NCBI GenBank assembly: GCA_028688905.1
Contig: JAQTXH010000004.1
Coordinates: forward strand, 73,636 to 137,635
DNA length: 64,000 nt
Source of the DNA: Acidiphilium sp.
Lineage (GTDB): Bacteria > Pseudomonadota > Alphaproteobacteria > Acetobacterales > Acetobacteraceae
Direction: 5' to 3'
This document shows positions 8,384-43,487 of the stretch, piece after piece (the stretch's first letter is position 1; every line of letters begins with the position of its first letter). The notes beneath the pieces are model-generated. The model searched no databases. It was not told the DNA's origin and was given only the letters and a program-made list of their open reading frames with translations. A program made the translations under genes and the position numbers.

Positions 8384-8388
8384 TCGGC

Positions 8389-8880
8389 ATGGCCCTCACC
8401 ATTCACCGTGAAATTGCCGCCGACGGCACCGAACTGCACCTGGTGCCGATGCCACCGCCGCGCTTGCCGCGGGTTCGGAAACGCGACATCGAACAGGCAT
8501 GGGAGGCCGCGCGTGATGCCGCCCGCGCCGGTCATGATGGTCCGGCGCGGGGGTTTCGCTTCGCCGGCGGCCCCGACGTGGCGCTGCGCGACCGCGATGC
8601 GCGGACCTGGGCGTTGTCGGTCGATCGGGTGGCCGACCTGTCGACACCGCACGGCATTTCGGTGTGCTTGCGCCTGCTGGGACTGGTCGCCCTGATCGGC
8701 GATGCGGCATGGCTGGCACCCTTCGTGCAGATCGGGCACGATGGCGCGGCACTCGATGGGGCGCTCCTCACCGCCGCCGCGCTGACCAGCTTGACCGACA
8801 CCGGTGGACTCAATGAAAACGAACTTCGCGCCATGCTGATCACGCGCGCAGCCGAGGACGATAAAAAATGCTCCGCCTGA
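8389..8880 (+). CDS. Hypothetical protein, Kup operon
   Basis: The 163-residue protein begins 5 bases after kup and ends inside the next gene with a 13-base overlap, so it belongs to the same transcript. It is hydrophilic at the N-terminus, with a basic stretch (PPRLPRVRKRDIEQAWEAAR), a central Asp/Arg-rich part (GGPDVALRDRDARTWALSVD) and a moderately hydrophobic segment (residues about 93-110) too polar to be a sure membrane helix. No family motif was recognised and no signal peptide is evident. Its real-gene status rests on operon packing and strong GC codon bias. Confidence 0.7.
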   Translation: MALTIHREIAADGTELHLVPMPPPRLPRVRKRDIEQAWEAARDAARAGHDGPARGFRFAGGPDVALRDRDARTWALSVDRVADLSTPHGISVCLRLLGLVALIGDAAWLAPFVQIGHDGAALDGALLTAAALTSLTDTGGLNENELRAMLITRAAEDDKKCSA

Positions 8881-9212
8881 CCCTGATGCTTTCGGCCATC
8901 ACTCTGCCGCTCGCCGCGTGTAGTTTTGGTGCGCCACCGCCGCAATCGGCCGCCGATAAGGCCAATCTCGCAGCCTGCACCCATCAGGCCGAGCAGATCG
9001 ACGCCGCGCGCCACTACGCCTATCTGTCGCGCACCGATCAGTTCGCAACACCGTTTCTCGGCACGCCGAACCCTGAATATCTGAGCAACAAGCTGGCGCA
9101 GTTGCACGACCAGGAAGATCGGATCAACGATTGTGTGAATAATGCCAATCCGTCCTATGCAGGGTCGGGCGCGGCGTTGCCGGAACCGACGATTATCGGA
9201 CCGACTCAATAA
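8868..9212 (+). CDS. Small predicted lipoprotein of unknown function
   Basis: The 114-residue protein has a clear lipoprotein signal, MLRLTLMLSAITLPLAACSF, with lipobox LAAC and Cys 18. The mature part is short, polar and alanine-rich, with a Tyr/Asp-rich centre (HYAYLSRTDQFATPFLGTPNPEYLSNKL) that suggests helices. No known domain was recognised. The start lies within the end of the preceding gene, implying coupling. The residue after the lipobox Cys is Ser, so outer-membrane sorting by Lol would be expected, but no partner is visible. Confidence 0.75.
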   Translation: MLRLTLMLSAITLPLAACSFGAPPPQSAADKANLAACTHQAEQIDAARHYAYLSRTDQFATPFLGTPNPEYLSNKLAQLHDQEDRINDCVNNANPSYAGSGAALPEPTIIGPTQ

Positions 9213-9246
9213 ATACATCGGAAAATACATCGGAAAATACATCGGA
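9211..9246. repeat. Perfect 3 x 12-bp tandem repeat
   Basis: Three identical copies of AAATACATCGGA run without interruption from the lipoprotein stop codon into the gap before the Pat-like gene. The gap is AT-richer than its surroundings and is the only space for a promoter for the downstream gene. The unit length (12 bp) does not match a helical turn. Confidence 0.9.
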
Positions 9247-9278
9247 TTTGCGCCGCATTTGAACTATAAGATCGGGTC

Positions 9279-20974: not shown

Positions 20975-23084
<2,110 letters not shown>

Positions 23085-23088
23085 GAAG

Positions 23089-23203
23089 GGTTCTTTTTTG
23101 TAAAAAAAGAACCAAAAAACTTTTATTCGCTGGGGCAACGAAATCGCCACAGCCTCAGGCCCAGCTCCAAAAATTTTTTGCTTCTTTTTTATAAAAAAAA
23201 GCC
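23089..23203. repeat. MITE-like paired-hairpin element, copy 1
   Basis: Two hairpins face each other across about 65 bp. The left arm pairs GGTTCTTTTTT with AAAAAAAGAACC (23089-23113) and the right arm pairs GCTTCTTTTTT with AAAAAAAAGCC (23180-23203). Each is flanked on the inside by AAAAAACTTTT or its complement. The interior holds TGGGGCA and CCTCAGG. A closely similar arrangement occurs at 30099-30208, and one arm recurs alone at 33719-33758. Located between pyrG and kdsA it may also stop or attenuate transcripts, although the T-runs lie inside the stems. Confidence 0.75.
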
Positions 23204-23234
23204 TTCCTTAACTTTTCCCTGCTCAGGTACCCGC

Positions 23235-24050
23235 ATGCACGTCACCATTGGCGATCTCACCATCGGCAACGACCTTCCTTTCACCCTGATCTCCGGCCCC
23301 TGCCAGATAGAATCCGCCGATCATGCCATCGGGGTCGCCGCCGAACTGGTCGAGATGACCCGCGCGCTGGGCATCGGCCTGATCTTCAAATCGAGTTATG
23401 ACAAGGCCAACCGCACGTCGCTCGGCACCGGGCGCGGGGTGGGGATGGCGGCGGGGTTGCAGATTCTGGCGGATATTCGGGGTAAATTCGGCATTCCGGT
23501 GCTGACCGATGTGCATGATGCGTATCAGTGTGCGCCGGTGGCCGAGGCGGTGGACGTTTTGCAGATCCCGGCGTTTTTGTGCCGCCAGACCGATCTGCTG
23601 TTGGCGGCGGGGAACACGGGGCGGGCGATCAATGTGAAGAAGGGGCAGTTTCTGGCCCCGTGGGATATGAAAAATGTCGCGGCGAAGATCGCCAGCACCG
23701 GCAATGAGCGGATTTTGTTGACCGAACGGGGCGCGAGTTTCGGCTACAACACGCTGGTCAGCGATTTCCGGGCTTTGCCGATCCTGGCGCAGACGGGTTA
23801 CCCCGTGGTGTTCGATGCGACGCATTCGGTGCAGCAGCCAGGCGGACAGGGTGGATCGTCGGGCGGGCAGCGGGAGTTTGCCCCGGTGCTGGCGCGGGCG
23901 GCTTTGGCGGTAGGGTGTGCGGCGCTGTTCATCGAATGTCATCCCGATCCTGATCATGCGCCCTCGGATGGGCCGAACATGATACCGCTGGATCAGATGC
24001 CGGCGTTGCTGGCGCGGTTACAGCGTTTCGATCTCGTCGCGAAAGCGTGA
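23235..24050 (+). CDS. kdsA: 3-deoxy-8-phosphooctulonate synthase KdsA
   Basis: KdsA condenses phosphoenolpyruvate with arabinose 5-phosphate to make KDO-8-phosphate for lipopolysaccharide. The 271-residue TIM-barrel protein has [69 protein letters not shown] and [19 protein letters not shown]. The Cys in SGPC marks the metal-dependent class, unlike the Asn of the E. coli enzyme. The start is the ATG before the first strand; an upstream in-frame start at 23178 would read through the hairpin repeat. Confidence 0.97.
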
Positions 24051-24142
24051 ACCGGGCAGGAATTGTGCTGAGGGCAATCGGGACATAGCGGCTCGCTCAA
24101 TCGTGTGTTGGGTTGCGCGCACCCTGGTCGCATGAAGCGCGC

Positions 24143-25954
24143 ATGGCACGCGATGCGATGGAACGGAGCCGGTTTACCCGGCGCACACTGATTATCGGGG
24201 GCGCGCAGACGCTGGTGTTCGGCGGGCTGGTGGCGCGGCTGTATGATTTGCAGGTGATCGAGCATCCGCATTATCGCAAACAGGCGCGGGATAATGCGAT
24301 TGCGCAGCGGCCGTTGGTACCCGAGCGCGGACTGATCACCGATCGCACCGGCGCGTTGCTTGCCGGCAATCGCCAGCATTGGCGGGCGTTGTTTCTGCTG
24401 ACCGATGCGCACGATCCACAGGGGGTGATCGCGCGGTTTGCCGAACTGATGGCTTTGTCGCCGGTGGAGCAGGCGCGGCTGGAAGCGGTGATCGCCGGGC
24501 CGGCGCAGTATGTGCCGGTGGTGCTCAAGCACGATCTGGATTGGGAGGAAATGGCGCGGCTGGAGGTTCATGCGACACAACTGCCCGGTGTGATCATCGA
24601 CCGCGGATTTTCGCGGTTCTATCCGCTGGGGGCTGATGCCGCCCATACCGTGGGCTATGTGGTACGGCCGAACGCGGCGGAAGCGGCGCAAAATCCGGTG
24701 CTCGCGTTGCCCGGTGCGCGGGTAGGTGGATCGGGGATCGAACAGGCGCGTGATGCGGTGCTGCTGGGTGCGCCCGGCGTGGTCGAGACCGAGGTCGATG
24801 CGCTGGGTTCGGTGGTGCGCGTGCTGGATCGCGATGCCGGGCAGCAGGGCAAAATCGTGTCGCTCACGCTCGACACCGTGCTGCAACGCGCCGCCGTCAC
24901 CGCGCTGGCCGGAAGGGTGGGTGCGACGGTGCTGCTCGATGCGCAGGACGGCGCTGTGCTGGCGATGGCGAGCGCGCCCTCGTTCGATCCCGCCTGGTTC
25001 GACCAGGGCGTGCCGGATGCGGTGTGGTCGCGCTGGATGAAAAACCCGGAACGCCCGCTGACCAACCGGACGACGCAGGGATTGTATGCGCCGGGGTCGT
25101 CGTTCAAGCCGACCGTGGCACTGGCGGCGTTGCGCTGCGGCGCGATCACCGCCGAAACCCGGTTCTTCTGCCCGGGGTATCTGAAGATCGGCGACCGGAT
25201 GTTCTATTGCTGGCTGCGATCGGGCCATGGTTCGATGGACGCGGCCTCGGCACTGCAACAGAGTTGCGACGTGTTCTACTACCATGTCGCGATGCGCACC
25301 GGGATCGACCGGATGGCGGCGATGGGCGACCGGCTGGGGCTGACCGGGCCGCCGCATCTCGATTTCCCCGATCTCGCCGCCGGGTTTCTGCCGACACGCG
25401 ATTGGGCGTGGCAGCGGCGGATCAACTGGACCGAGGGTGATACGGCGGTGGAGGGGATCGGGCAGGGCTATACGCTGTTCACGCCCTTGAATATGGCGAC
25501 GATGATCGCGCGGGTGGCGACGGGGCAGGCAATCGTGCCGCATCTGGTGCGGGCAGTGGGTGAAGCGATGGCCGCGCGCCCAACGCCGGGCGGTCTGAGG
25601 CTGGACGATGAGCATCTGGCGGTAGTGCGGCGCGGGTTGGATGAGGTGGTGAACACGCCGGCGGGGACATCCTGGGGGGCGCGGCTGATGCTGCCGGGGG
25701 GCGTGCGGATGGCTGGCAAGACCGGCACCGCCCAGGTGATCAACGAAGACGCCGCGATGGAAGCGGCCAATTACAACGACGCGCGGTTACCCTGGAAATT
25801 CCGGCCGAACGCGCTGTTCGTGGGATATGCGCCGGTGGATAAGCCCCGGTTCGCGGCGGCGGTGGTGATCGAGCATGGCACGCTGCTGGGGCCGGTGAAG
25901 GTGGCGCGCGATGTGTTCACGGCGGCGTTTGGGCAGGATTTGGCGGTGGGGTGA
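24143..25954 (+). CDS. mrdA: Penicillin-binding protein 2 (MrdA), elongation transpeptidase
   Basis: This class-B PBP of 603 residues makes lateral-wall crosslinks with RodA and MreBCD. One N-terminal helix (LIIGGAQTLVFGGLVARLYDLQ) precedes the dimerisation domain (RGLITDRTGALLA) and the transpeptidase domain. The active-site motifs are SSFK (nucleophile Ser319, Lys322), SCD in LQQSCDVFYY, and KTGTAQV (Lys526). The length suits MrdA. mreBCD and rodA, often adjacent, are not in the window. The start at the second candidate ATG has GAAG upstream; a TTG at 24113 is also possible. It borders the accessory island downstream. Confidence 0.94.
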   Translation: MARDAMERSRFTRRTLIIGGAQTLVFGGLVARLYDLQVIEHPHYRKQARDNAIAQRPLVPERGLITDRTGALLAGNRQHWRALFLLTDAHDPQGVIARFAELMALSPVEQARLEAVIAGPAQYVPVVLKHDLDWEEMARLEVHATQLPGVIIDRGFSRFYPLGADAAHTVGYVVRPNAAEAAQNPVLALPGARVGGSGIEQARDAVLLGAPGVVETEVDALGSVVRVLDRDAGQQGKIVSLTLDTVLQRAAVTALAGRVGATVLLDAQDGAVLAMASAPSFDPAWFDQGVPDAVWSRWMKNPERPLTNRTTQGLYAPGSSFKPTVALAALRCGAITAETRFFCPGYLKIGDRMFYCWLRSGHGSMDAASALQQSCDVFYYHVAMRTGIDRMAAMGDRLGLTGPPHLDFPDLAAGFLPTRDWAWQRRINWTEGDTAVEGIGQGYTLFTPLNMATMIARVATGQAIVPHLVRAVGEAMAARPTPGGLRLDDEHLAVVRRGLDEVVNTPAGTSWGARLMLPGGVRMAGKTGTAQVINEDAAMEAANYNDARLPWKFRPNALFVGYAPVDKPRFAAAVVIEHGTLLGPVKVARDVFTAAFGQDLAVG

Positions 25955-26340
25955 AGTGAGCATTGCGCCGTTCATGTCAGCCCAGTGACCGCGCGGCTAT
26001 ACGCTTTTACAACCACGACTTATGGCATGAATTATGTTGCTGCTAACACGGAATTTTTAGGGCGAAATGGCAGCGGACGGTAAAGCCAGACCTGGATGCG
26101 GATGCCCGACGGGTGTCAATTCACAGGCGCGGACCTCGTGGGCATCGGCATCAATTCCCAGGTCAGAAGCTTTGCGATCAGGCGCAAAGTGGGAGCCATG
26201 TGCAGTTCCAGCCCTATAAGATTTCGTATCAATAATTGATGTGTTATCGAATGGGGATCAAGTGTCACTGCAAATGAACCGACCATCAACCCGATGGGCG
26301 CGTTCCGATGCTCTATGTGCGCGTGCTGAAAGGAGCCTTC
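25955..26340. other. Intergenic region at left edge of accessory island
   Basis: This 386-bp gap is less GC-rich than its surroundings (for example AATTATGTTGCTGCTAAC at about 26031-26048) and holds no supported gene, tRNA or insertion-sequence end. AAGGAG at 26329-26335 is the ribosome-binding site for the fusion gene. AT-rich stretches near 26220-26250 could hold the promoter, but I could not assign clear -35 and -10 boxes. Confidence 0.5.
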
Positions 26341-28743
26341 ATGGCTGTGACCGAGGTCGACCATCTCATCCTGGGCGGAGGAGCCGCCGCCGCGACAGCG
26401 GTCGAGACGCTGCGCCTCGAAGACGCCGGTTGCTCGATCATGATCCTGTCGGCCGACAGCAGCCCGCCTTATTATCGCCCGGCTCTGTCCAAACAATTCC
26501 TGCTCGGAAGCGCGCCAGATGATCAGATATTGCTTCACCCGGCGAAATTCTACGAAGAGCAACGTATATCGCTCCTGCTGAACACGGAGGCGGCCGTGCT
26601 GGACACCGCCGCACGGATCGTCACCATAGCGACGGGCGAACGGGTTCATTACGAGCGCCTGCTGATCGCGACCGGCTCCAGCGGAAAGCGGCTCACCCTT
26701 CCGGGCACCGAGCTTCCTGGCGTCCATCATCTGCGCGGCAGAACTGAATGCGAGGCGATCCGGCGCGAGATCAACCACGGTGCCAGACGTGCCGTCGTGC
26801 TGGGCGCAAGCTTCCTCGGCATGGAAATCGCCATGTCGTTGATCGATCTCGGTCTCGACGTCACCATCGTCGAGGAACGGGACCGCGTGCTGACCCATGT
26901 CGAATCCGGCCGTGTCTCGGACTATTTCAGGCGCCACGCCGAAAAGAGAGGCGCAACGGTGCTGCTTTCCGACACGATCACCGCGATCCACGGTGCCGGC
27001 CGGATTCGCGAGGTCGAAACCCGGTCCGGCATGAAACTCCCCTGCGACCTGCTGGTGGTGAGCATCGGCGTGGTGCCGGTCACCGATTTCCTGATGGGAA
27101 GCGGCATCGCGCTGGATGAGGGGCTTGTCATCGTCGATGACCAGTTGCGGACCAATGTACCCAACATCTTTGCCGCCGGCGACGTGACCAGCTTCCTCGA
27201 TCCGGTCTTCGGGTGCCGCCGGCACATCGAGCATTGGGACAACGCGGTCAAGCAAGGCCGGCTCGCGGCCCGTAATATGCTCGGCCGCCGCCTGCGCTAT
27301 GACGAGGTCTCCTACTTCTTTTGCGACATCGGCGACATCAGCTTCAGCATGCTCGGCGCGCCCGAGGAGGCCGACGAACGCGTCGCGCGCGGATCGCTCG
27401 CGTCTAAATCGCTTGCTCTCTTCTACCTGAAGGACGACGTGCCGCGCGCGCTGCTATCGGTCGGCCGCCCGACCGAGGAGACACGCAGCATCGAGGGGCT
27501 GATCCGCTATCGTGTCAATCTGTACGACGAGAAAGCGAAGCTTCACGATCCCAACTTCGCGCTCGATCGGATTCCAACACAGACCGTTCTCGTCCTGCAG
27601 GGGGGTGGTGCGATGGGCGCGTTCGAATGTGGTGCCATCAAAGCCCTCGAGGAAGAAGGCATCTTTCCCGATATCGTGGCGGGCATCTCGATCGGTGCGC
27701 TCAATGGGGCGATCGTCGCTGGCAATCCACGGCACGCCACCCAGGCGCTGGAATCCTTCTGGTCGGCGATCGCGGTCGTTTCCCCCGCCCCGCTCGGCGA
27801 GGAAGCGGCGCGGGCGATCACGGCGGCGCAAATACTGACATTCGGGGTGCCCAATTTCTTCCGGCCCCGCTGGATGCAGTCCTTCATGGCCCCGATGGCC
27901 TTGCCGTCGAGCTGGACCAGCTTCTACGATGTTGCGCCGATGAAGGCGCTGATCGCGCGCTATGTCGATTTTGGCAAGCTCAAGGCCAGTCCCATCCGCT
28001 TGCTGGTGGGAGCGGTCAATGTGCAATCGGGCGAACTGGAAGTGTTCGACAGCTACGTCGACGATCTAACGCCCGATCATGTGCTGGCGAGCGGCAGCCT
28101 GCCGCCCGGCTTCCCATGGACCGAAATCGGCGGCAAGGCTTATTGGGACGGCGGCGTCATCAGCAATTCGCCGCTCGACATCGTGATCGACCGCTGCGGG
28201 CCGGACGGAAAGCGCGTCTATATCGTCGATCTGTTCGTGGGCCAGCGCCCGCTTCCCACCAACATGATGGAGGTCCTGGCCCGGCGTGACGAGATCGTCT
28301 ATTCGGAGCGGGTCCGCAGCGACCTGCGCTTCCGCGAGATTTCGGGGTCCTATCGCCAGTTGGTCGACCGCGTTCTCGAACTGGTCGATCCGGCAACCCA
28401 GGCGAAGATTAGACAGCGCCCGCTCTATATCGAGTTGATGGGTGACGGTGCCGCGACGACCATCACCCGCTTTGTCCGGCGGGGCCGCGATGGCGAACCC
28501 TCGTCGCGGGACTATGATTTCTCCGATATCTCCATCCGCGCCAATCAGGAACAAGGCTATGCGCTGGTGAAGGAAACGCTGCACACATCCGCCGACCGGC
28601 TTGCCGAAGGCGCGGACGATGTTCCCGATGCAGCGTCTCCCCTGCCCCGCCTGTTCCCTGCAATCGGCGAAAACAATCGTCTGGCAGGCGATGTGCCACC
28701 TCGCAGACAAGCCGGAAAAACCAAAGCAGAGCCGCCTTTGTAG
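26341..28743 (+). CDS. Fusion protein: ferredoxin-reductase-like FAD/NAD(P) oxidoreductase + patatin-like phospholipase
   Basis: The 800-residue protein joins two complete enzymes. Residues 1-~410 form a pyridine-nucleotide-disulfide-type flavoprotein like putidaredoxin/biphenyl ferredoxin reductases: FAD loop LGGGAAAAT (11-19), YYRPALSKQFLLG, NAD loop VVLGASFLGMEIA (152-164) and second FAD motif NIFAAGDVTSF (Asp281). Residues ~415-635 form a patatin hydrolase with oxyanion GGGAMGAF (421-428), nucleophile GISIG (Ser450) and DGG (Asp603). A C-terminal region to ~755 resembles the DUF3734 tail of patatins linked to polyhydroxybutyrate use. The start has AAGGAG 5 bases upstream; an ATG at 26308 lacks this. 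No stop or frameshift separates the halves. Confidence 0.9.
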   Translation: MAVTEVDHLILGGGAAAATAVETLRLEDAGCSIMILSADSSPPYYRPALSKQFLLGSAPDDQILLHPAKFYEEQRISLLLNTEAAVLDTAARIVTIATGERVHYERLLIATGSSGKRLTLPGTELPGVHHLRGRTECEAIRREINHGARRAVVLGASFLGMEIAMSLIDLGLDVTIVEERDRVLTHVESGRVSDYFRRHAEKRGATVLLSDTITAIHGAGRIREVETRSGMKLPCDLLVVSIGVVPVTDFLMGSGIALDEGLVIVDDQLRTNVPNIFAAGDVTSFLDPVFGCRRHIEHWDNAVKQGRLAARNMLGRRLRYDEVSYFFCDIGDISFSMLGAPEEADERVARGSLASKSLALFYLKDDVPRALLSVGRPTEETRSIEGLIRYRVNLYDEKAKLHDPNFALDRIPTQTVLVLQGGGAMGAFECGAIKALEEEGIFPDIVAGISIGALNGAIVAGNPRHATQALESFWSAIAVVSPAPLGEEAARAITAAQILTFGVPNFFRPRWMQSFMAPMALPSSWTSFYDVAPMKALIARYVDFGKLKASPIRLLVGAVNVQSGELEVFDSYVDDLTPDHVLASGSLPPGFPWTEIGGKAYWDGGVISNSPLDIVIDRCGPDGKRVYIVDLFVGQRPLPTNMMEVLARRDEIVYSERVRSDLRFREISGSYRQLVDRVLELVDPATQAKIRQRPLYIELMGDGAATTITRFVRRGRDGEPSSRDYDFSDISIRANQEQGYALVKETLHTSADRLAEGADDVPDAASPLPRLFPAIGENNRLAGDVPPRRQAGKTKAEPPL

Positions 28744-28945
28744 AACTTGCAGGACCAAAGTACTGTCGAGTTGGATGCAGCGGGTTCGGTTTTGAGCAAC
28801 ACAATTCCAATTCATTATTTTTTTGCGGATAAATACTACACAATAAATTTTGTATTCGAAACGGCGCAAGCGATGGAAATTGCGGACACGGAGGCTCACG
28901 CTCGCGGGTGGGGGTTCGGAGCGGGTTGCCGGACACGCACTCCAT
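28744..28945. other. AT-rich gap between fusion gene and IS630 element
   Basis: About 200 bp follow the fusion stop. The centre (28800-28860) is AT-rich and the last 80 bp are GC-rich. No gene, tRNA or clear terminator was recognised. The last part reads through into the left terminal repeat of the insertion sequence. Confidence 0.5.
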
Positions 28946-28947
28946 TA

Positions 28948-30050
28948 CTCACAAGTCGGTAATTAAGGCGACATTTTGCTAGGCGTATGGTTACGAGTAT
29001 GATATAAATCTGGCATGAAACGTGACGGTCGAAGGTTTGATCATCGTACCCTGGAAACCATCCGGTTGATGGCCGTAGAGCGAGTGCGCGAGGGCGAGGC
29101 GGCTTCCTCAGTGATTGCCTCATACGGGTTCAGCCGCACGACGATTTATAAATGGCTTGCTGCGGCATCGAAGCCCGGGGTCGGGGTGAAAGCGTTGCGG
29201 TCACGGCCGGCAACCGGCCGGCCGCGGCGCCTGACGCGACGCCAGGAGCAGCAGGTGTTACGTTGGGTCAATGGCCGCGATCCACGCCAATACGGCATGG
29301 ATTTCGGGTTGTGGACGCGGCACGTTGTAGCTGAACTGATCGAGCGCAAGTTCGGTATCCAACTCGGTGTGACGGCGGTGGGCGAACTGCTGGCGAAGCT
29401 GGGCCTGACGCCGCAAAAGCCGTTGCAGCGTGCCTATCAGCGCGACCCGGAGGCGATCGAGGCATGGCGACGCGAGCGGTTTCCTGAAATCGCCAAGCAG
29501 GCAAAGTCTTGTGGCGGCGAGGTCTTTTTCTGGGACGAGTCCGGTTTCCGGGCCGACGCCGTGCATGGCAAGACCTGGGGCGTGAAGGGACAGACGCCGA
29601 TCATCGAGCGTCCTGGTCAGCGGCAATCGATCAGCGCCGCCTCGGCGATCACGGCGCGCGGCGGGTTCTGGTATTGCACCTACGAAGGCGGGCTGAATGC
29701 TGAGTTGTTCGTCGTGCTGCTACGCCAGATGATGCGGTACCGCACAAGGCCGGTACACCTGGTCCTCGACGGGTTACCAGCCCACAAAACAGCGCTGGTG
29801 AGAGCCTACGTGGCGTCGACCAATGGGATGCTGACGTTGCATTTTCTCCCTGGCTACGCCCCTGACCTGAACCCCGATGAACTGGTCTGGAGCCACATGA
29901 AGCGCACGGGCGTCGCCAGAACTCCGTTACGCCAAGGCGAAAAGCTTCAGGACAAAATCGAAGCCCAACTCGCTGCCATCAAGCGCAAACCACGTCTCGT
30001 CCAATCATTTTTCAAAGCACCGACTGTCGCCTATATTACCGACTTCTGAG
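28948..30050 (+). mobile_element. Complete IS630-family insertion sequence (~1.1 kb)
   Basis: Terminal inverted repeats of about 27 bp begin CTCACAAGTCGGTAAT at the left (28948) and, read inward from the right end (30050), CTCAGAAGTCGGTAAT. They match at all but three positions. A TA dinucleotide lies directly outside each end (28946-28947 and 30051-30052), the TA target duplication expected for IS630/Tc1-mariner transposition. One intact transposase gene fills the element, and its stop codon lies inside the right repeat. All parts look intact, so the element may still be mobile. Confidence 0.93.
29015..30049 (+). CDS. IS630-family transposase
   Basis: The 344-residue DDE transposase has an N-terminal helix-turn-helix pair (ASSVIASYGFSRTTIYKWL, then a winged region around LTRRQEQQVLRW) and an RNase-H-like catalytic domain. 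The acidic triad is Asp in FFWDESGF (~173), Asp in LVLDGLPAHK (~251) and Glu in YAPDLNPDELVW (~290). KTWGVKGQTP is another family hallmark. It is a single frame, without the programmed frameshift some IS630 members use, and appears intact. Confidence 0.96.
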   Translation: MKRDGRRFDHRTLETIRLMAVERVREGEAASSVIASYGFSRTTIYKWLAAASKPGVGVKALRSRPATGRPRRLTRRQEQQVLRWVNGRDPRQYGMDFGLWTRHVVAELIERKFGIQLGVTAVGELLAKLGLTPQKPLQRAYQRDPEAIEAWRRERFPEIAKQAKSCGGEVFFWDESGFRADAVHGKTWGVKGQTPIIERPGQRQSISAASAITARGGFWYCTYEGGLNAELFVVLLRQMMRYRTRPVHLVLDGLPAHKTALVRAYVASTNGMLTLHFLPGYAPDLNPDELVWSHMKRTGVARTPLRQGEKLQDKIEAQLAAIKRKPRLVQSFFKAPTVAYITDF

Positions 30051-30098
30051 TAATCACAAGGGATGAAGGGTGGGAAAGTGGAAAGAAGGGAAGGGAAG

Positions 30099-30208
30099 GC
30101 TACTTTTTTGAAAAAAGTAGCAAAAAACTTTTGTTAGTTGGGGCACGGGTGTTTCAGAGGGCACGGGCTCAGGGTCAGAAAGTTTTTTGGGTTTTTTCAA
30201 AAAAGAAC
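30099..30208. repeat. MITE-like paired-hairpin element, copy 2
   Basis: The left arm is an 11-bp perfect stem, GCTACTTTTTT/AAAAAAGTAGC, around a single G (30099-30121). The right arm pairs GTTTTTTC with AAAAAAGAAC (30191-30208). Between them are AAAAAACTTTTGTTAG, TTGGGGCA and GGCTCAGG, closely paralleling copy 1 at 23089-23203. It starts about 50 bp beyond the insertion sequence and abuts a REP-type palindrome. Confidence 0.75.
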
Positions 30209-30230
30209 TGCTTTTTCTTGCCTTTTGCAA

Positions 30231-30262
30231 GATGGATTGCTTCGCTGCGCTCGCAATGACGC
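30231..30262. repeat. REP-type palindrome (ATTGC...GCAAT family)
   Basis: The stretch GGATTGCTTCGCTGCGCTCG followed by CAATGAC forms a short stem between ATTGC and GCAAT. This is the widely dispersed bacterial repeat whose complement encodes the familiar artefact peptide VIASAAKQS. Here it directly follows paired-hairpin copy 2 and ends about 25 bases before the next start codon. Confidence 0.8.
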
Positions 30263-30287
30263 GGAGGCGGTCGTTAGGGGAGCGGAT

Positions 30288-31295
30288 ATGGATGTGGATG
30301 AGGGGGTGGCGGCTTCGGTTGCGTATTTGTCGTCGGCGGCGGCGATGGATTGCCTTGCGGCCAGCGCGTATTGGCCGAAGTGGGATTCGCCCTGGTGGCA
30401 TATGCTGCTGTTGCATGAGATGGGCGAGACGCGGCGGATTCCCGAGCGGGCGGTGGGGGCGTTCGTGGATGCGTTGAATGCGATGCCGGTGAAGATATTT
30501 CCGATCCATGAGGATGAGGTTCCGGCGGGGATCGATCCGTATAACGATACGGCGTGTCATTGTCAGTTGGGGAATGTGTATCGGGTGCTCGATGCGTGGG
30601 GTTTGGATGTCGATGCGGCGTTGCCGTGGGTGGGGCCGTGGTTCGTGCGGTATCAGATGGCGGATGGCGGGTTGAATTGCGATGAGGCGGCGTATTTGGT
30701 CGCGGATGAGTGCCCGAGTTCGATGGTGGGGACGATTGCGGCGTTCGAGGCGATGGCGATGCGGTCGCGGGGGGATTTGAATGCGGCGGAAGCGGGGTTT
30801 GTCGATCGGGCGGCGGGATTCATGGCGGGGCGGCGGCTGACGATGGGGTCGGCCACGCGGCACAATGCGGCGGAGCGGGTGGCGGCGGCGGGGTGGATGT
30901 TGCCGTGTTTTCCACGGTTTTATCATTACGATGTGCTGCGGGGGCTGACGGCGCTGAGCGTATGGGCGGAGCGGCGGGGGGTGGGATTGGCGCGGGATGT
31001 GGTGGCGCCGGTGGTGGCGGCGATGGATGAGGCGTTTCCGGACGGGGTGGTGCGGATCGGGCGGTCGTGCTGGGCGGGGCATGGGACGATCGTGCGGTCG
31101 GGCGATGGGTGGGATCATCGGCGGCAGGCGGCGGTTGGGTTTGGGTTGTTGGAGGCGGTGAGTGAGGTTGGGGCGGTGTCGCCATATTTGACGCGGGAAT
31201 GGGCGGGGACGCGGCGGCGGGTGGTGGGGGTTATGGGGTGGGGGTGGGTTGGCCGATTGGTTGCGATGGGTGTTGATCGGGGACGCTGGAGTTGA
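30288..31295 (+). CDS. Uncharacterised protein with possible alpha/alpha-toroid (terpene-cyclase/prenyltransferase-like) fold
   Basis: The 335-residue soluble protein has Trp- and Asp-rich helical segments spaced like toroid repeats: WPKWDSPWWHMLLLHEMGE (~20-40), LGNVYRVLDAWGLDVDAAL, WFVRYQMADGGLNCDEAAYL, and CFPRFYHYDVLRGLTALSVW (~200-220). The DGG and FYHYDVLR patterns recall squalene-cyclase/prenyltransferase repeat proteins, but no DxDD catalytic motif is present, so enzyme function is not claimed. The ATG has GGGGAG 5 bases upstream. In-frame sequence before it (from 30138) is REP and hairpin DNA, not protein. Codons are strikingly G-ending. Paralogy or acquisition with the island is possible. 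Confidence 0.65.
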   Translation: MDVDEGVAASVAYLSSAAAMDCLAASAYWPKWDSPWWHMLLLHEMGETRRIPERAVGAFVDALNAMPVKIFPIHEDEVPAGIDPYNDTACHCQLGNVYRVLDAWGLDVDAALPWVGPWFVRYQMADGGLNCDEAAYLVADECPSSMVGTIAAFEAMAMRSRGDLNAAEAGFVDRAAGFMAGRRLTMGSATRHNAAERVAAAGWMLPCFPRFYHYDVLRGLTALSVWAERRGVGLARDVVAPVVAAMDEAFPDGVVRIGRSCWAGHGTIVRSGDGWDHRRQAAVGFGLLEAVSEVGAVSPYLTREWAGTRRRVVGVMGWGWVGRLVAMGVDRGRWS

Positions 31296-31464: not shown

Positions 31465-31857
31465 ATGAAAATATTATTTAATATTATCCCTATTTCAGCA
31501 ATCTTTCTTCTCGTTGGTTGCGGTTCCCGGTCAAGTATGGCATCCTCTAACTATAAAAGTAAAGAAAGTTATGAGAAAATATCTTCATGCTTCATTAGAA
31601 TAGCAGAAAATCAGAATATCGTTGGAAAGGGTCCGAACGTATCTGTAATATCTCTCAGAGATCCGACCGAGATACAGGTCGCTGATATCTATAGTGGAGT
31701 ATATTATTGGGAAGTTGATTTTATGCCGCTGAGTAGTGGCAGCTCAATAATTATTCGTGGATATTCCCTGTTTGGAAATAAAAAGTCTTTCTTTATCCAA
31801 CATGAGGCGGCAAAACTGGAAAGATGCGGCAAGATCACCCAAATCGGTGGTGATTAG
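31465..31857 (+). CDS. Small AT-rich predicted lipoprotein, probably horizontally acquired
   Basis: The 130-residue protein begins MKILFNIIPISAIFLLVGCG, a lipoprotein signal with lipobox LVGC. The mature part is Ser/Ile-rich (SYEKISSCFIRIAENQNIVG, VISLRDPTEIQVADIYSGVYYW), suggesting a small beta domain. No family was recognised. Its AT-rich codons (AAA, ATA, AAT) contrast sharply with the chromosome and resemble the K+ channel gene nearby, so both probably arrived by transfer. The start is the ATG at the signal peptide; the frame is open upstream to 31336. Confidence 0.65.
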   Translation: MKILFNIIPISAIFLLVGCGSRSSMASSNYKSKESYEKISSCFIRIAENQNIVGKGPNVSVISLRDPTEIQVADIYSGVYYWEVDFMPLSSGSSIIIRGYSLFGNKKSFFIQHEAAKLERCGKITQIGGD

Positions 31858-32032
31858 AGTTCAAGGTCCGCGAAGACTGCTGAGTTGCCGGACATCGTTT
31901 GAAGGGGCCGGTATCCCGGACGCGGTAGGTGTCGCTGGTGTGGAGGATCATGACCATCACGATTGCGACGACGCGTAGTATATCGATGCGCGGGTTGCGG
32001 TGGGCGGGGTGATGGGTGGTTGGGGGCGGCAT
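31835..32032 (-). pseudogene. Remnant of an acyltransferase-3 family membrane protein (N-terminal fragment)
   Basis: A 65-codon minus-strand frame contains RNPRIDILRVVAIVMVMILH, the characteristic first helix of acyltransferase-3 (OafA-like) O-acetyltransferases. After about residue 40 the similarity stops, the sequence becomes unrelated, and the frame ends. A real member has about 350 residues, so this is a truncated remnant. The break lies at about 31910, before the end of the AT-rich lipoprotein gene. Confidence 0.6.
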
Positions 32033-32099
32033 CGGGAGTGGGTAACGCGTTGGCGCCCCGCGGGATAGGTGGGGTGAATGGTGGCGGATGGGGAGCAGA

Positions 32100-32125
32100 G
32101 GCGGATTGCGCTTCGCTTTTCCGCC
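32100..32125. repeat. REP-type palindrome GGCGGATTGCGC...TTCCGCC
   Basis: GGCGGA and TCCGCC pair around TTGCGCTTCGCTTT, followed by CTAC. This is a second class of common dispersed palindrome in high-GC proteobacteria. It lies in the 386-bp gene-poor stretch between the small lipoprotein and the K+ channel. Confidence 0.7.
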
Positions 32126-32243
32126 CTACTGTTGTTTGTTCGAATATTGTCACCAATCTTTGCGGTAGATAAGGAAATTGGGATTTTACGTTCGACCGCA
32201 TAGGTTATAAAAGTAAAATAGTGGGGCTCAAGAGGTGCCTTTC

Positions 32244-33062
32244 CTACGGGGCAGGCATGTCCTTCTTTGAGAGTGAGAGATTTTCTGATAATGCAAGAAT
32301 TAAGATGGCCAAAAATACTGGAATAGCGAATGATCCGATTAACGCTTGAGTACTGGCCAGAATTTTCGTTATATTGTTTGCCGGCGATAGATCTCCATAT
32401 CCAACTGTTGTTTGAGTGATAATTGAAAAATACAATGAGCTGAAAAAATCTGGTCGGAATGTGGAGGGCTTGTGTATAATTGCGTTGTATGACTGCACGC
32501 CATAAAAAAACCCGAAAAGCGTGTAACTAAGCGCAAAAGTCAAAATATAAATAGTATAAATGACTGAATAGTAGGCAGCCGAAAATATGATCAAACCTTT
32601 CAATTGTTCGATAGGTTTGGCGTCTATGCTGCCGCCTGTAGAGTTTATTTGTGAATATTTTGGATAAGATGTTGATATATAAATTATAACAAACCAAGAT
32701 GAACGAAACAACAAAATAATTATTAATGATAAAAAAGAAATATCAACGAATATATTTGTAGCATAAATATCTGTATTTATGACATAGAAGCAAAACAACA
32801 CGTAAACAGTTATCACCGAGATCAATAGAAAAAGTACTAAGTATTTATGAAATTTCATTATAATTTGGATGGCGGCTATTATCAACGAAGTCAGTAAAGC
32901 TGCAAACTTATAATGCTTAGTGATTGAAGTAAAGCATGAATTAGGTGCGAAACTCCAAATAATGACTAGAACAAATAAAAATAACTGAAAACAAAATAAA
33001 AATATTCCACATTTTCTACTACAATCTCTAACTTTTTGAACCTTTTCTATAATGTAGGACAT
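32244..33062 (-). CDS. Potassium channel-like membrane protein (Ion_trans_2 pore), AT-rich, foreign
   Basis: About 272 residues contain several hydrophobic helices (IFLFCFQLFLFVLVIIW, AALLTSLIIAAIQIIM, YLVLFLLISVITVYVLFC, ISFLSLIIILLF, SVIYTIYILTFALSYTLFGFF). The pore module follows with selectivity filter TTVGYGDLSP in SLYFSIITQTTVGYGD, then a last helix. The filter sequence is canonical for K+. No RCK or cyclic-nucleotide domain follows; only about 15 residues remain after the last helix. The gene is extremely AT-rich compared with its neighbours, a sign of recent transfer. The start is the ATG at 33062; a GTG five codons earlier (33077) is possible. Neither has a strong ribosome-binding site. 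Confidence 0.85.
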   Translation of the reverse strand: MSYIIEKVQKVRDCSRKCGIFLFCFQLFLFVLVIIWSFAPNSCFTSITKHYKFAALLTSLIIAAIQIIMKFHKYLVLFLLISVITVYVLFCFYVINTDIYATNIFVDISFLSLIIILLFRSSWFVIIYISTSYPKYSQINSTGGSIDAKPIEQLKGLIIFSAAYYSVIYTIYILTFALSYTLFGFFYGVQSYNAIIHKPSTFRPDFFSSLYFSIITQTTVGYGDLSPANNITKILASTQALIGSFAIPVFLAILILALSENLSLSKKDMPAP

Positions 33063-33185
33063 ATTTTTTTCAGTCACCTTGTATGTTTTTTCTAAGCTTG
33101 TATTTTAAATTCAAACATAGGTCTTGCCCATTGAGTAATTCCCGATCCTTCAAATGAGATGATTGTCTATACACTTACCTTATGC

Positions 33186-33704
33186 TTAAATCGTTCGAGT
33201 TCCTCTTGCGATTGCGGCAACACCCGTTCTCGACACTTCAGCCAATCCTAGCGGTCGCATCAAATCCAGAAACGCGTCCAGTTTATCGGTTGCACCGGTT
33301 AATTCAAACACGAAGCTTTCGGTGGTTGCATCAATTACGCGTGCGCGGAAGGCGTCGGCTAGGCGGAGGGCTTCAGCGCGGTTTTGGTTTTGGCCGATGA
33401 CTTTGATGAGGGCGAGTTCGCGGGCGAGGTGGGGGCCTTCGCGGGAGAGGTCGGAGACGCGGTAGACCGGGACGAGGCGGTCTAGTTGGGCTTTGATCTG
33501 GTCTATTACCAACTCGGTGCCGGTGGTGACGATGGTGATGCGGCTTTTGCGGCGGTCTTCTTCGACGGGGGCGACGGTGAGGCTGTCGATGTTGTAGCCG
33601 CGGCCGGAGAAGAGGCCGATGACGCGGGCGAGGACGCCGGATTCGTTTTCGACGAGGACGGAGATGGTGGCCGAGCGGAGGGGTTCTTCGACGATGGCGT
33701 TCAT
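33186..33704 (-). CDS. ilvN: Acetolactate synthase small (regulatory) subunit IlvN/IlvH
   Basis: The 172-residue regulatory subunit gives valine feedback control to acetolactate synthase. An N-terminal ACT domain begins SATISVLVENESGVLARVIGL and includes FSGRGYNIDSLTV; the C-terminal domain has LARELALIKV and SFVFELTGATDKLDAFL. Length is normal for the long (IlvH-like) form. It follows ilvB by about 80 bases on the same strand, separated by a hairpin repeat. ilvC, the usual next gene in alphaproteobacteria, is absent; the foreign K+ channel lies there instead. Confidence 0.95.
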   Translation of the reverse strand: MNAIVEEPLRSATISVLVENESGVLARVIGLFSGRGYNIDSLTVAPVEEDRRKSRITIVTTGTELVIDQIKAQLDRLVPVYRVSDLSREGPHLARELALIKVIGQNQNRAEALRLADAFRARVIDATTESFVFELTGATDKLDAFLDLMRPLGLAEVSRTGVAAIARGTRTI

Positions 33705-33718
33705 GGGCTTTAATCTTT

Positions 33719-33758
33719 ACGAATAAAAGTTTTTTGCTGCTTTTTTACAAAAAAGCAG
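33719..33758. repeat. Solo hairpin arm of the paired-hairpin repeat, between ilvB and ilvN
   Basis: CTGCTTTTTT pairs with AAAAAAGCAG around AC (33737-33758). Read on the minus strand it is followed by CAAAAAACTTTTATTCG, the same junction sequence found in the left arm of copy 1 and copy 2. Only one arm is present. It lies in the transcribed gap between the two acetolactate synthase subunit genes. Confidence 0.75.
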
Positions 33759-33785
33759 GGCTTGCCTTGCTGTTTTCCTGACGCC

Positions 33786-35567
33786 TCAGACGAGAACCAA
33801 GCCCTCGTCAGTAATGCCGCGCGCTTCTTCCTCATGTTCGGGGCCGAGGATCATTTCGTTGTGGGCGGCACCGGAGGGGATCATCGGGAAGCAGTTTTCC
33901 CGTTTGTCGACGTGGATGTCGGCGATGACCGGGCGGTCGGAGGCGATCATTTCGGCAATCACGCGGTCGAGGTCGTCGATGGTTTCGGCGCGGAGGCCGA
34001 CGGCGTGGAAGCTTTCGGCGAGTTTGACGAAGTCGGGCAATGCTGCCGAGTAGCTTTCGGAGTAGCGGCCGCCGTGCAGAAGTTCCTGCCATTGGCGGAC
34101 CATGCCCATGTATTCGTTGTTGAGGATGAAGATTTTCACCGGCAAACGATACTGCGCCAGCGTGCCCATTTCCTGGATGTTCATCAAAATGGAGGCTTCG
34201 CCGGCGATGTCGATCACCAGCGCGTCGGGGTGGGCGAGTTGGGTGCCCATGGCGGCGGGGAGGCCGTAGCCCATGGTACCGAGGCCGCCCGAGGTCATCC
34301 AGCGGTTGGGTTTGTCGAAGCGGTAGTGCTGCGCGGCCCACATCTGGTGCTGGCCGACCTCGGTGGTGATGTAGGTATTGCGCTCATGGGTCATGTCCCA
34401 GAGGCGCTTGATCGCATGTTGCGGCTTGATCGTGGCACCGGGTGCGAGGCTCTGGGTGAATTTCAGGCTGTCCTTGGTGCGCCATACCTCGATGCGCTGC
34501 CACCAATCGGCCAGGGCGGTGCGATCCTGGCGGGTGCTGTCCGATTTCCACGCCTCGATCAAAGCGCGCAGTCCGAGCAGGGCATCGGCGATGATCGGCA
34601 CGTCGACCACGACGTTTTTGTTGATATTGGCGGGATCGATGTCGAGATGGATTTTTTTCGCGCCGGGTGCGAAGGCGTTGAGGCGGCCGGTAACGCGATC
34701 GTCGAACCTTGCGCCGAGGTTCACCATCACGTCGCAGCCATGCATCGCGAGGTTGGCCTCGTAGGTGCCGTGCATGCCGAGCATACCGAGGAAGGCGGGG
34801 TTGGAAGCGGGAAACGCGCCGAGGCCCATCAGGGTCGAGGTGACTGGCGCGCCGGTCAGGCGGGCGAATTCAATCAGCAAGTCCGAAGCTTCCGGCCCGG
34901 CATTGATGATGCCGCCGCCAGTATACAGGATCGGCCGTTTGGCGGCTTTGATCAGACGGATCGCCTCGCGGATGGGTGCGGGTTCGGGTTCGGTGCGGGG
35001 CCGGTAGGAACGGTGGGGGCCGGCGACCGGGTCGTCGTAGGGGGCCGGGTTGATCAATATGTCCTTGGGCAAATCGACCAGCACCGGGCCGGGGCGGCCG
35101 GTGCGGGCGACGTAGAATGCCTCGTGGACCACGCGCGCGAGGTCTTCGGAGCGTTTGACCAGGTAATTATGCTTGGTCGCCTGACGGGTGATGCCGGTGG
35201 TGTCGGCTTCCTGGAACGCGTCGTTGCCGATCAAATGGGTGGGAACCTGACCGGTGAGGCAGACCAGGGGTACGCTGTCCATCAGGGCATCGAGCAAGCC
35301 GGTGACCGCGTTGGTGGCACCGGGGCCGGAGGTGACGAGCACGACGCCCACTTTTCCGGTCGAGCGGGCATAGCCTTCGGCGGCGTGGACGGCGGCCTGT
35401 TCGTGGCGGACCAGAATGTGGCGGATCGCGTTTTGCTGGAACAGCGCATCGTAGATCGGCAGGACGGCACCGCCGGGATACCCGAAAATAACATCCACCC
35501 CCTGCGCCTTGAGCGCGCGGAGTAAAATTTCGGCACCGGAAACGGCGGTGGTGGTCAAGGCGTTCAT
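33786..35567 (-). CDS. ilvB: Acetolactate synthase large (catalytic) subunit IlvB/IlvI
   Basis: This thiamine-diphosphate enzyme condenses two pyruvates (or pyruvate and 2-oxobutyrate) in branched-chain amino-acid synthesis. The 593-residue protein shows VIFGYPGGAVLPIYDAL, the catalytic Glu in VRHEQAAVHAAEGYAR, TSGPGATNAVTG, and the C-terminal ThDP-Mg site with IAGEASILMNIQEMGTLAQY and NNEYMGMVRQWQ. In most members the ThDP motif starts GDGSF or GDASF; here it reads IAGEASILMN, a mild deviation. The start is the ATG with AGGAC 8 bases upstream; a TTG at 35588 would add seven residues. Confidence 0.95.
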   Translation of the reverse strand: MNALTTTAVSGAEILLRALKAQGVDVIFGYPGGAVLPIYDALFQQNAIRHILVRHEQAAVHAAEGYARSTGKVGVVLVTSGPGATNAVTGLLDALMDSVPLVCLTGQVPTHLIGNDAFQEADTTGITRQATKHNYLVKRSEDLARVVHEAFYVARTGRPGPVLVDLPKDILINPAPYDDPVAGPHRSYRPRTEPEPAPIREAIRLIKAAKRPILYTGGGIINAGPEASDLLIEFARLTGAPVTSTLMGLGAFPASNPAFLGMLGMHGTYEANLAMHGCDVMVNLGARFDDRVTGRLNAFAPGAKKIHLDIDPANINKNVVVDVPIIADALLGLRALIEAWKSDSTRQDRTALADWWQRIEVWRTKDSLKFTQSLAPGATIKPQHAIKRLWDMTHERNTYITTEVGQHQMWAAQHYRFDKPNRWMTSGGLGTMGYGLPAAMGTQLAHPDALVIDIAGEASILMNIQEMGTLAQYRLPVKIFILNNEYMGMVRQWQELLHGGRYSESYSAALPDFVKLAESFHAVGLRAETIDDLDRVIAEMIASDRPVIADIHVDKRENCFPMIPSGAAHNEMILGPEHEEEARGITDEGLVLV

Positions 35568-35621
35568 GGTCGCGTCCTGTTGGGTCAAGCGAGCAGAGGT
35601 AGCCTGACCCCGCCCTTAACG

Positions 35622-42745: not shown

Positions 42746-42932
42746 GATAATGCTGCATTGCGGTAAGGGCGGACATTGACGATGACGCAGTGACGCCACG
42801 GTATTGGTGTAGCAAATGGAACCTAGCGAACAGGACTGAGCGGTTGGGATTGCACTTTGGCAAAGGACGCGCCGGCCCACTGATCCGTTTCGGGTTCGGC
42901 AAATGAGCAACCTAATCGAAAGGACACACAAA

Positions 42933-43487
42933 ATGAGCGGCAAGATCAAATCGACTGAGACAGTTCAGAAAGCCACAGGCGAGGCGCTGAACGAAACGGG
43001 CGAGATCAAGAACGAAATCAAGGCTGAGGTTACGGCAGGGTTCGAGAAGACCCTCGCGACAATGAAGGACGGCATGGAAAACGCGACGAAGGGTTTCGAG
43101 TCCCAGCAGGTTAAAATGAAAGAGGGTATGGCAAAGGCGATGAAGAAAACGGAAGAAATGGTGGCGTTCAGCCAGGGTAATATCGAAGCCTTCATGAAAG
43201 CCGGCCAGATTTTCGCGACCGGTATGCAGGGGCTTTCGAAGAATTTTATGAGCAGCACGCAATCGTCGGTCGAAGAGACCGTGGCGATGACCAAGGCGAT
43301 CGCTGGTGTCAAATCGATAAAAGAAGCGATCGATTTGCAGTCGGGCTTCGCGCGCTCGATGATGGAAAAAATGGTCGCCGAAAGTAGCAAGATGACGGAC
43401 GCTTCGATGAAGCTGACCGAACAGGCGATCGCGCCGCTTACGGCCCGCATGACGCTCGCCGTCGAAAAATTCGGTGCCGCCCTTTAA
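42933..43487 (+). CDS. Phasin-family polyhydroxyalkanoate granule protein
   Basis: The 184-residue, all-helical, Lys/Met/Ala-rich protein has no membrane segment. The phasin domain runs from about residue 60 (FSQGNIEAFMKAGQIFATGMQGLSKNFM) to 165 (LQSGFARSMMEKMVAESSKMTDASMKLTEQAIAPLTARM), as in Phasin_2 proteins that coat PHA granules. AAAGGA about 9 bases upstream supports the ATG at 42933; an upstream in-frame ATG at 42903 lacks one. Its presence implies the organism stores polyhydroxyalkanoate. Confidence 0.88.
   Translation: MSGKIKSTETVQKATGEALNETGEIKNEIKAEVTAGFEKTLATMKDGMENATKGFESQQVKMKEGMAKAMKKTEEMVAFSQGNIEAFMKAGQIFATGMQGLSKNFMSSTQSSVEETVAMTKAIAGVKSIKEAIDLQSGFARSMMEKMVAESSKMTDASMKLTEQAIAPLTARMTLAVEKFGAAL

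Follow-up and report, generated by a model that had tools for sequence, protein, structure and literature searches.

The fusion gene and its surroundings

The stretch of Acidiphilium sp. DNA analysed here (64,000 nucleotides, referred to below as the window) harbours a single gene, one uninterrupted open frame of 800 codons, in which a flavoprotein reductase is joined to a patatin-type hydrolase (Table 1). The encoded protein is composed of four Pfam domains, Pyr_redox_2 and Reductase_C in its N-terminal half and Patatin (PF01734; 112.3 bits against a cut-off of 27.7) and DUF3734 (PF12536; 71.5 against 22 bits) in its C-terminal half, all of which exceed their curated cut-offs. The Pyr_redox_2 part contains two FAD motifs, GGG at residues 12-14 and GD at 280-281, together with an NAD loop, GASFLG (residues 155-160), and Glu178; in Reductase_C, Phe327-Cys328 occupy the place of the Trp-Ser found in many relatives. 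The patatin part contains the oxyanion GGG (421-423), Ser450 (27688-27690) within a GxSxG motif and Asp603 (28147-28149), followed by Gly604. The frame, the four domain matches and the position of each of these motifs agree with an earlier, sequence-only reading of this DNA, which had described a complete reductase with both FAD motifs and an NAD loop, joined to a complete patatin/DUF3734 protein with an intact Ser450/Asp603 dyad and oxyanion GGG. An AF2 model of all 800 residues, built from the alignment of the fusions, has a mean pLDDT of 83, with runs below 50 at residues 606-608 and in the tail (752-800) only, and a pTM of 0.80, which by itself is no proof of a domain interface.

Table 1. 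Features of the window at and around the fusion gene
Feature	Position	Strand	Remarks
CTP synthase	21231-23081		upstream of the fusion
KDO-8-P synthase	23178-24047		upstream of the fusion
mrdA-like (PBP2) gene	24113-25954	+	directly upstream of the fusion
Ribosome-binding-site-like GAAAGGAG	26328-26335	+	5 nt upstream of the ATG; motif spotted by eye
Fusion gene, 800 codons	26341-28743	+	N-terminal FAD/NAD(P)H reductase, C-terminal patatin/DUF3734
Pyr_redox_2	26359-27258	+	residues 7-306; Pfam 4.5e-58
Reductase_C	27313-27567	+	residues 325-409; Pfam 1.2e-7
Junction	27466-27585	+	residues 376-415; conservation about equal to that of the flanking domains
Patatin	27589-28185	+	residues 417-615; Pfam 4.2e-32
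DUF3734	28294-28590	+	residues 652-750; Pfam 8.3e-20
Insertion sequence	28944-30054	+	DDE_3 transposase 29015-30046
Acetolactate synthase, small and large subunits	33189-35588		beyond the insertion sequence
Phasin	42903-43487	+	Phasin_2, 7.6e-23; 14.2 kb downstream of the fusion

The names mrdA and acetolactate synthase large subunit are our assumption and reach beyond the Pfam domains found. The insertion sequence, which we take to be IS630-like, begins 201 bp past the stop codon of the fusion and is bounded by inverted repeats of 30 nt (28944-28973 and 30025-30054, 90% complementary). A patch of low G+C content (29-48%) at 31501-33500 contains an ORF with an ion-channel domain, and no relaxase or conjugation genes were recognised by eye in the translations of the window. 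The gene had previously been placed in a transfer island beside an insertion sequence; the insertion sequence is real, with its DDE_3 transposase and inverted repeats, but the island is not supported, and the flanks are chromosomal housekeeping genes. The phasin that had been noted some 14 kb away is also present.

Distribution, conservation and affinities of the two halves

The fusion is not a single case: 46 further loci carry the same architecture. A pattern scan of contigs of GTDB species identified 46 distinct loci, 41 with the fusion (L009-L049, of which L048 ends at a contig edge) and five with a related reductase only, and a further five plasmids match the fusion along 80% or more of its length; the 46 fusion loci counted below are these 41 contig and five plasmid loci, besides the window. 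None of 46 matching phage records covers 80% of the fusion protein. The hosts, as labelled, are alpha- and betaproteobacteria and one gammaproteobacterium, Pseudomonas indoloxydans (L041). Acidocella aminolytica carries the fusion gene twice. Within these groups the fusion is scarce, being found in 6 of 200 genomes of the family to which the window belongs and in 2 of 385 of its class, with the genome of the window included in both. Additional candidates from the host family, namely L079 and the long open frames that precede the unfused patatins of L074-L077, yielded no further fusion: the upstream part of L075 has inverted codon-position G+C, and the upstream frames of L074, L076 and L077, like the frame of L079, appear by eye to be antisense or non-coding.

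A chance association of the two domains was set aside because tblastn matches to the fusion protein run almost end to end. Similarly, a frameshift or read-through artefact is ruled out by homologues that are open across the junction: the 45 fusion loci that reach the patatin have one open frame across residues 390-420, where the sequence-only reading had allowed for a hidden stop or frameshift. One homologue (L037) shifts frame close to its C-terminus. In an alignment of 39 fusions, composed of the window and 38 of the 41 contig loci (the five plasmid copies being omitted together with L030, a near copy of L029, L037, with its frame change, and L048, which its contig truncates), GGG12-14, G280-D281, GGG421-423, Ser450, Asp603 and Gly604 are invariant. 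The junction itself (376-415) has a mean commonest-residue fraction of 0.70, compared with 0.64-0.82 in the parts of the reductase, 0.70-0.78 in the patatin and DUF3734 domains and 0.13 in the C-terminal tail. Nei-Gojobori dN/dS ratios from 13 close pairs, in which some loci were used twice and dS is saturated in L029-L039, range from 0.08 to 0.32 for the reductase half and from 0.07 to 0.27 for the patatin half; as they are low in all 13, both halves are constrained, and purifying selection acts on each of them.

The 39 reductase halves form one clade in the reductase tree (support 100/97), and a single fusion clade is moderately supported in the tree of the patatin halves (90/87). The window protein clusters with that of a MAG labelled Xylophilus (77% identity) and, in the reductase tree, with Acidocella, a grouping which makes it likely that the fusion has moved between proteobacterial classes, although the Xylophilus label might instead stem from mis-binning of the MAG. 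That the fusion travels is shown by the plasmid copies.

In structural comparisons, which bear on the reductase half, the best Foldseek match of the fusion is 3lxd (target TM 0.93) and the 50 matches listed are all reductases, whilst the solved sequences ranked highest by phmmer are 3fg2 and 3lxd. The reductase tree, which was rooted at its midpoint and contains 3fg2, 3lxd and 6krt as its only solved proteins, joins the fusions to 6krt, a plant monodehydroascorbate reductase on a long branch, and to four Chloroflexi-type MAG reductases (100/99), apart from both the Rieske-bearing AIF-like proteins and the ferredoxin reductases included. The best solved matches of one of these MAG reductases (L051) are likewise monodehydroascorbate reductases (5e-70). 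The tryptophan of the FWS motif, which acts near the ferredoxin site, is missing from all 39 fusions, where it is replaced by Phe (32) or Tyr (7), with Cys as the next residue in 36. It is kept in 11 of 17 comparison reductases (eight Rieske-AIF proteins, two of the AndAa type and L111) as well as in 3fg2 and 3lxd. This tryptophan is missing, too, from L108, an unfused reductase which the tree places on the side of the ferredoxin reductases, so that its loss alone leaves a ferredoxin possible. The description of this half as ferredoxin-reductase-type holds for its fold, and for its FAD/NAD motifs and Pyr_redox_2/Reductase_C domains, which are of the BphA4/PdR/TodA type, but neither its place in the tree nor its score is that of a ferredoxin--NAD(+) reductase of this type: the 25 NCBIfam families listed of 53 all fall below their cut-offs, the best, a ferredoxin reductase, reaching 242 of 650 bits.

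The fusion also lacks, by Pfam, the N-terminal Rieske domain of AIFM3-type proteins. A Rieske motif is present in all seven reductase-only relatives fetched from the host family (of 21 found) and was confirmed by Pfam in two of them (L102 and L107). When the ORFs called in the window and in L009-L059 were scanned for Rieske motifs, an approach blind to ORFs dropped by the simple gene caller, such motifs turned up in L039, L056 and L057 only, where they belong to a dioxygenase alpha subunit and, in L056, to its ferredoxin. Nor is there a conserved redox partner gene among the 25 commonest families listed for the neighbours of the fusion. Taken as a whole, a ferredoxin is an unlikely partner of the reductase half. 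The NAD loop keeps Gly155 and Gly160 without exception, and 38 of the 39 fusions have an acidic residue, Glu or Asp, at position 178. In such folds an acidic residue at an equivalent position favours NADH, and Glu178 therefore suggests NADH, rather than NADPH, as the cofactor.

Linkage to polyhydroxybutyrate genes

A gene for 3-hydroxybutyrate dehydrogenase (BDH; identity of 55% or more to reference enzymes, themselves taken from two of these loci) lies no more than two genes from the fusion in 14 of the 46 loci. With or without acetoacetate decarboxylase (ADC), it is arranged in several orders, namely ADC-fusion-BDH, ADC-BDH-fusion, BDH-fusion and fusion-ADC-BDH. Eight BDHs were submitted to NCBIfam, five from fusion loci and the others from L056, from L127 (the congener) and from L084, a locus with an unfused patatin; seven pass the cut-off of TIGR01963 (3-hydroxybutyrate dehydrogenase), and for the eighth, from fusion locus L013 and cut by a contig end, this family is the best among the matches listed, below its cut-off. 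In five further loci a PHB_depo_C gene (177-181 bits) is found within two genes of the fusion, three of them in the order PhaC-PhaZ-fusion. L033 and L036 have weak, partial matches to PHB_depo_C (31 and 34 bits, cut-off 27) that fit a generic hydrolase as much as PhaZ, and these were tallied separately. Linkage to polyhydroxybutyrate (PHB) genes is thus clear in 19 of the 46 fusion loci and weak in two more, and the remaining 25, some of them with short flanks, have neither within about two genes.

The Tardibacter and Sphingopyxis plasmids carry ADC, fusion and BDH in this order, with a 4-nt overlap between the latter two and a phasin within a few kb, and in Cupriavidus phaZ adjoins the fusion divergently. 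In a survey of 141 ORFs that flank the fusion in 43 loci (all but L030, L056 and L057), 17 match models of short-chain dehydrogenases, 7 PHB_depo_C, 6 ADC and 4 Phasin_2, as counted in two tables that give the 25 commonest of 64 and of 80 families. PhaC is present in 34 of 35 fusion genomes, a sample in which L015 and L018 share genomes with L010 and L014 and which does not extend to L019, L028, L043 and L048. A match is also present in 47 of the 51 genomes listed from the window's own family or class, which makes this co-occurrence weak evidence; with the class background about equally high, it was dropped as proof of a role in PHB metabolism. The genome of the window encodes two PhaC, one PHB_depo_C protein, a phasin and two BDH homologues (76% and 68% identity to the Acidocella BDH), and no DUF3734 protein besides the fusion. 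No match to the BDH, ADC or PHB-depolymerase references occurs in the window itself, ADC is absent from the entire genome, and no remnant of ADC or BDH lies beside the fusion gene.

The linkage extends to unfused relatives of the patatin half. In the host family, BDH and/or ADC occur on the same stretch as an unfused DUF3734-type patatin in 11 of 19 cases examined, a non-random choice, by best score plus five long frames, from the 38 places found; these relatives are 35-39% identical to the patatin domain of the window, one reaching 47%. On a Ponticoccus plasmid the patatin overlaps ADC, and a cytochrome b-like gene and then a BDH match follow. Linkage in relatives thereby backs the tie between such patatins and PHB breakdown that the sequence-only reading had put forward. 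In a congeneric genome (G438; L127), mrdA, an unfused patatin with DUF3734, ADC and BDH follow one another on one strand, whereas in the window mrdA is followed by the fusion and then the insertion sequence. The two mrdA homologues are 64% identical. KDO-8-P synthase and other neighbours from the window were sought in L127 and none was found, and the other four congeneric mrdA stretches contain no patatin, one of them (L125) ending 217 bp past mrdA. Gene order at mrdA makes it likely, short of proof, that the fusion and an unfused patatin replace one another at one chromosomal site.

Proposed function and comparison with known systems

The reading that we favour, with a probability of roughly 0.5, is that the fusion is an intracellular hydrolase that mobilises PHB and carries its own NADH-sensing flavin module, by which depolymerisation is tuned. 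We infer PHB as the substrate, the binding of FAD and NADH from the motifs, and both the gating and its direction. In this mechanism the patatin/DUF3734 half would use Ser450-Asp603 to cleave PHB ester bonds at the granule surface, and the released 3-hydroxybutyrate would be oxidised by BDH to acetoacetate, yielding NADH. The N-terminal half would bind FAD and NADH and relay the NADH/NAD+ state to the hydrolase via the conserved junction, matching depolymerisation to the demand for reducing power, in the simplest form through negative feedback from NADH produced by BDH. We lean towards a gate rather than a catalytic NADH oxidoreductase for two reasons: hydrolysis consumes no electrons, which leaves switching as the service that a fused flavoprotein could best provide, and the neighbouring genes show no redox partner. 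Gating is further supported by the invariant cofactor and catalytic residues, the purifying selection on both halves, the loss of the FWS tryptophan and the confidence values of the AF2 model, as well as by the related AIF, which is described as an NAD(H/+) redox sensor (PMC7822688).

Several observations weaken the PHB reading. More than half of the fusion loci (25 of 46) are without a nearby PHB gene, and BDH, ADC and PHB depolymerase are missing from the window, as is ADC from its genome. In addition, single knock-outs of two patatin-type candidates, phaZh1 in Haloferax and slr0060 in Synechocystis, are reported to leave PHA use essentially unchanged (PMC4823750, PMC7203880). The full form of the proposal, a redox-gated PHB depolymerase in which an NADH-reduced flavin switches the patatin and the same polypeptide reads the reducing power of its own product, is offered as a tentative possibility. 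If it is right, release of the carbon reserve may be coupled to the redox state of the cell.

An alternative scenario, which we regard as rather unlikely though still a serious competitor, accepts the patatin as a PHB depolymerase and makes the reductase half a working NADH:acceptor oxidoreductase, the fusion serving to co-localise the two at the granule. NADH made by BDH would be re-oxidised, or electrons would be passed to an organic or quinone-like acceptor. Monodehydroascorbate reductase, with which the reductase half groups, is NADH-dependent and reduces a small organic radical; all cofactor motifs are retained, and a nearby BDH makes NADH. Against these points, neither the neighbour families listed nor the Rieske-motif scan revealed a gene for a redox partner. 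A second and improbable scenario is that the patatin attacks lipids of the granule or the membrane, as a phospholipase or acyl hydrolase, its link to PHB genes being indirect. Patatins are commonly phospholipases, the patatin-like PlpD is the only solved sequence to match this half better than 1e-3, and in Sphingopyxis the fusion has a phospholipase A gene in its vicinity. An indirect link, however, sits poorly with the recurrence of BDH, ADC, PhaZ and PhaC in differing orders, around unfused relatives too.

A ferredoxin reductase that feeds an oxygenase is a far less probable identity for the N-terminal half. Its fold, its Pfam domains and its closest solved matches are those of that family, and dioxygenase genes lie downstream of the fusion in Tardibacter and Sphingopyxis; these dioxygenase clusters, however, bring their own ferredoxin and reductase, and the lost tryptophan, the position outside the ferredoxin-reductase branch included and the low NCBIfam score all argue against it. 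A chance or decaying read-through fusion devoid of joint function, for which only its scarcity speaks, can be discounted almost entirely given the single clade, the low dN/dS ratios and the invariant catalytic residues.

What decides when stored PHB is used has been asked for a long time, and the NADH/NAD+ ratio is a long-suspected control. A conserved fusion of a flavoprotein to a putative depolymerase makes such control testable on one purified protein, and the fused and unfused versions linked to mrdA within one genus provide a natural comparison. Should the gated reading hold, it would place allosteric redox control inside a storage-polymer hydrolase that has probably moved from one proteobacterial class to another; within the genus of the window, the gated form would stand where a relative has an unfused patatin. 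The hydrolase half is hidden from current annotation, as four annotated plasmid records name the reductase only: three read 'FAD-dependent oxidoreductase', and the other gives 'FAD-dependent pyridine nucleotide-disulphide oxidoreductase'. A literature search, whose scope left out most subscription journals and all preprints, returned no description of this fusion.

The closest parallels are found among systems in which a patatin accompanies BDH. PatD of Legionella, a patatin-like protein, is one of these. It is encoded in one operon with the BDH gene, and PHB breakdown is reported to be defective when bdhA-patD is mutated (PMC4549902); there the two are separate genes, and the likeness is one of description. 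PhaZh1 of Haloferax mediterranei, a patatin-type PHA depolymerase beside bdhA (PMC11205408, PMC6520949), shares the patatin domain, the adjoining BDH gene and the granule context, but no flavoprotein domain is mentioned for it, and it too is likened by description, not by sequence.

For the reductase half, 6krt is the nearest solved protein in the tree, yet the monodehydroascorbate reductases (6krt, 5jcm and 7bq6) are free-standing enzymes without a hydrolase domain, are about 25% identical in the structural match and rank below 3fg2 and 3lxd by plain sequence score. Apoptosis-inducing factor (AIF) and its Rieske-bearing bacterial kin share the FAD/NADH fold, but the Rieske domain is theirs and has no counterpart in the fusion, which forms a separate clade; in human AIF an NADH-driven structural rearrangement is described as redox sensing (PMC7822688). 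The natural joining of a flavoreductase to further domains is likewise seen in Trichomonas, where a flavodiiron protein, a rubredoxin and a rubredoxin oxidoreductase are reported to be fused (PMC9364112); those domains carry electrons to oxygen, whereas the hydrolase partner here needs none. Provided that PHB is its substrate, the fusion would represent a new version of the patatin-type PHB depolymerase.

Gene order around the fusion

The fusion gene adjoins the window's copy of the mrdA-like (PBP2-like) gene, one of two in this genome, which share 58% identity. Two diverged fusion genes (loci L010 and L015) are also found in one genome of Acidocella aminolytica, where the genes for acetoacetate decarboxylase and 3-hydroxybutyrate dehydrogenase (BDH) lie upstream of one and downstream of the other. 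An unfused patatin occurs in a row of genes in the congeneric genome G438 (see table).

Coordinates of features in the window, its genome (G000) and the congener
Feature	Location	Remarks
mrdA-like gene	G000:C26:97748-99586	
mrdA-like gene	G000:C10:568326-570131	
Gene row, L127 (G438:C6)	5522-10460	one strand; mrdA-like, unfused patatin with DUF3734, acetoacetate decarboxylase, BDH in succession
Small insertion sequence, complete	window 28944-30054	inverted repeats 30 nt; starts 201 bp 3' of fusion gene
ORF, 385 residues	window 30138-31295	3' of insertion sequence
Low-G+C patch	window 31501-33500	minimum 29%
ORF with Ion_trans_2 channel domain	window 32244-33077	inside low-G+C patch

The insertion sequence and the stretch beyond

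By eye, the insertion sequence is apparently bordered by TA on both sides. The 385-residue ORF beyond it gave no Pfam match at 0.001.

Related reductases

The four reductases L050-L053, which group with the reductase half of the fusion, are encoded in MAGs of bacteria; for three of the four, the title gives Anaerolineae or Anaerolineaceae. Among solved structures, the best match of L051 is plant monodehydroascorbate reductase.
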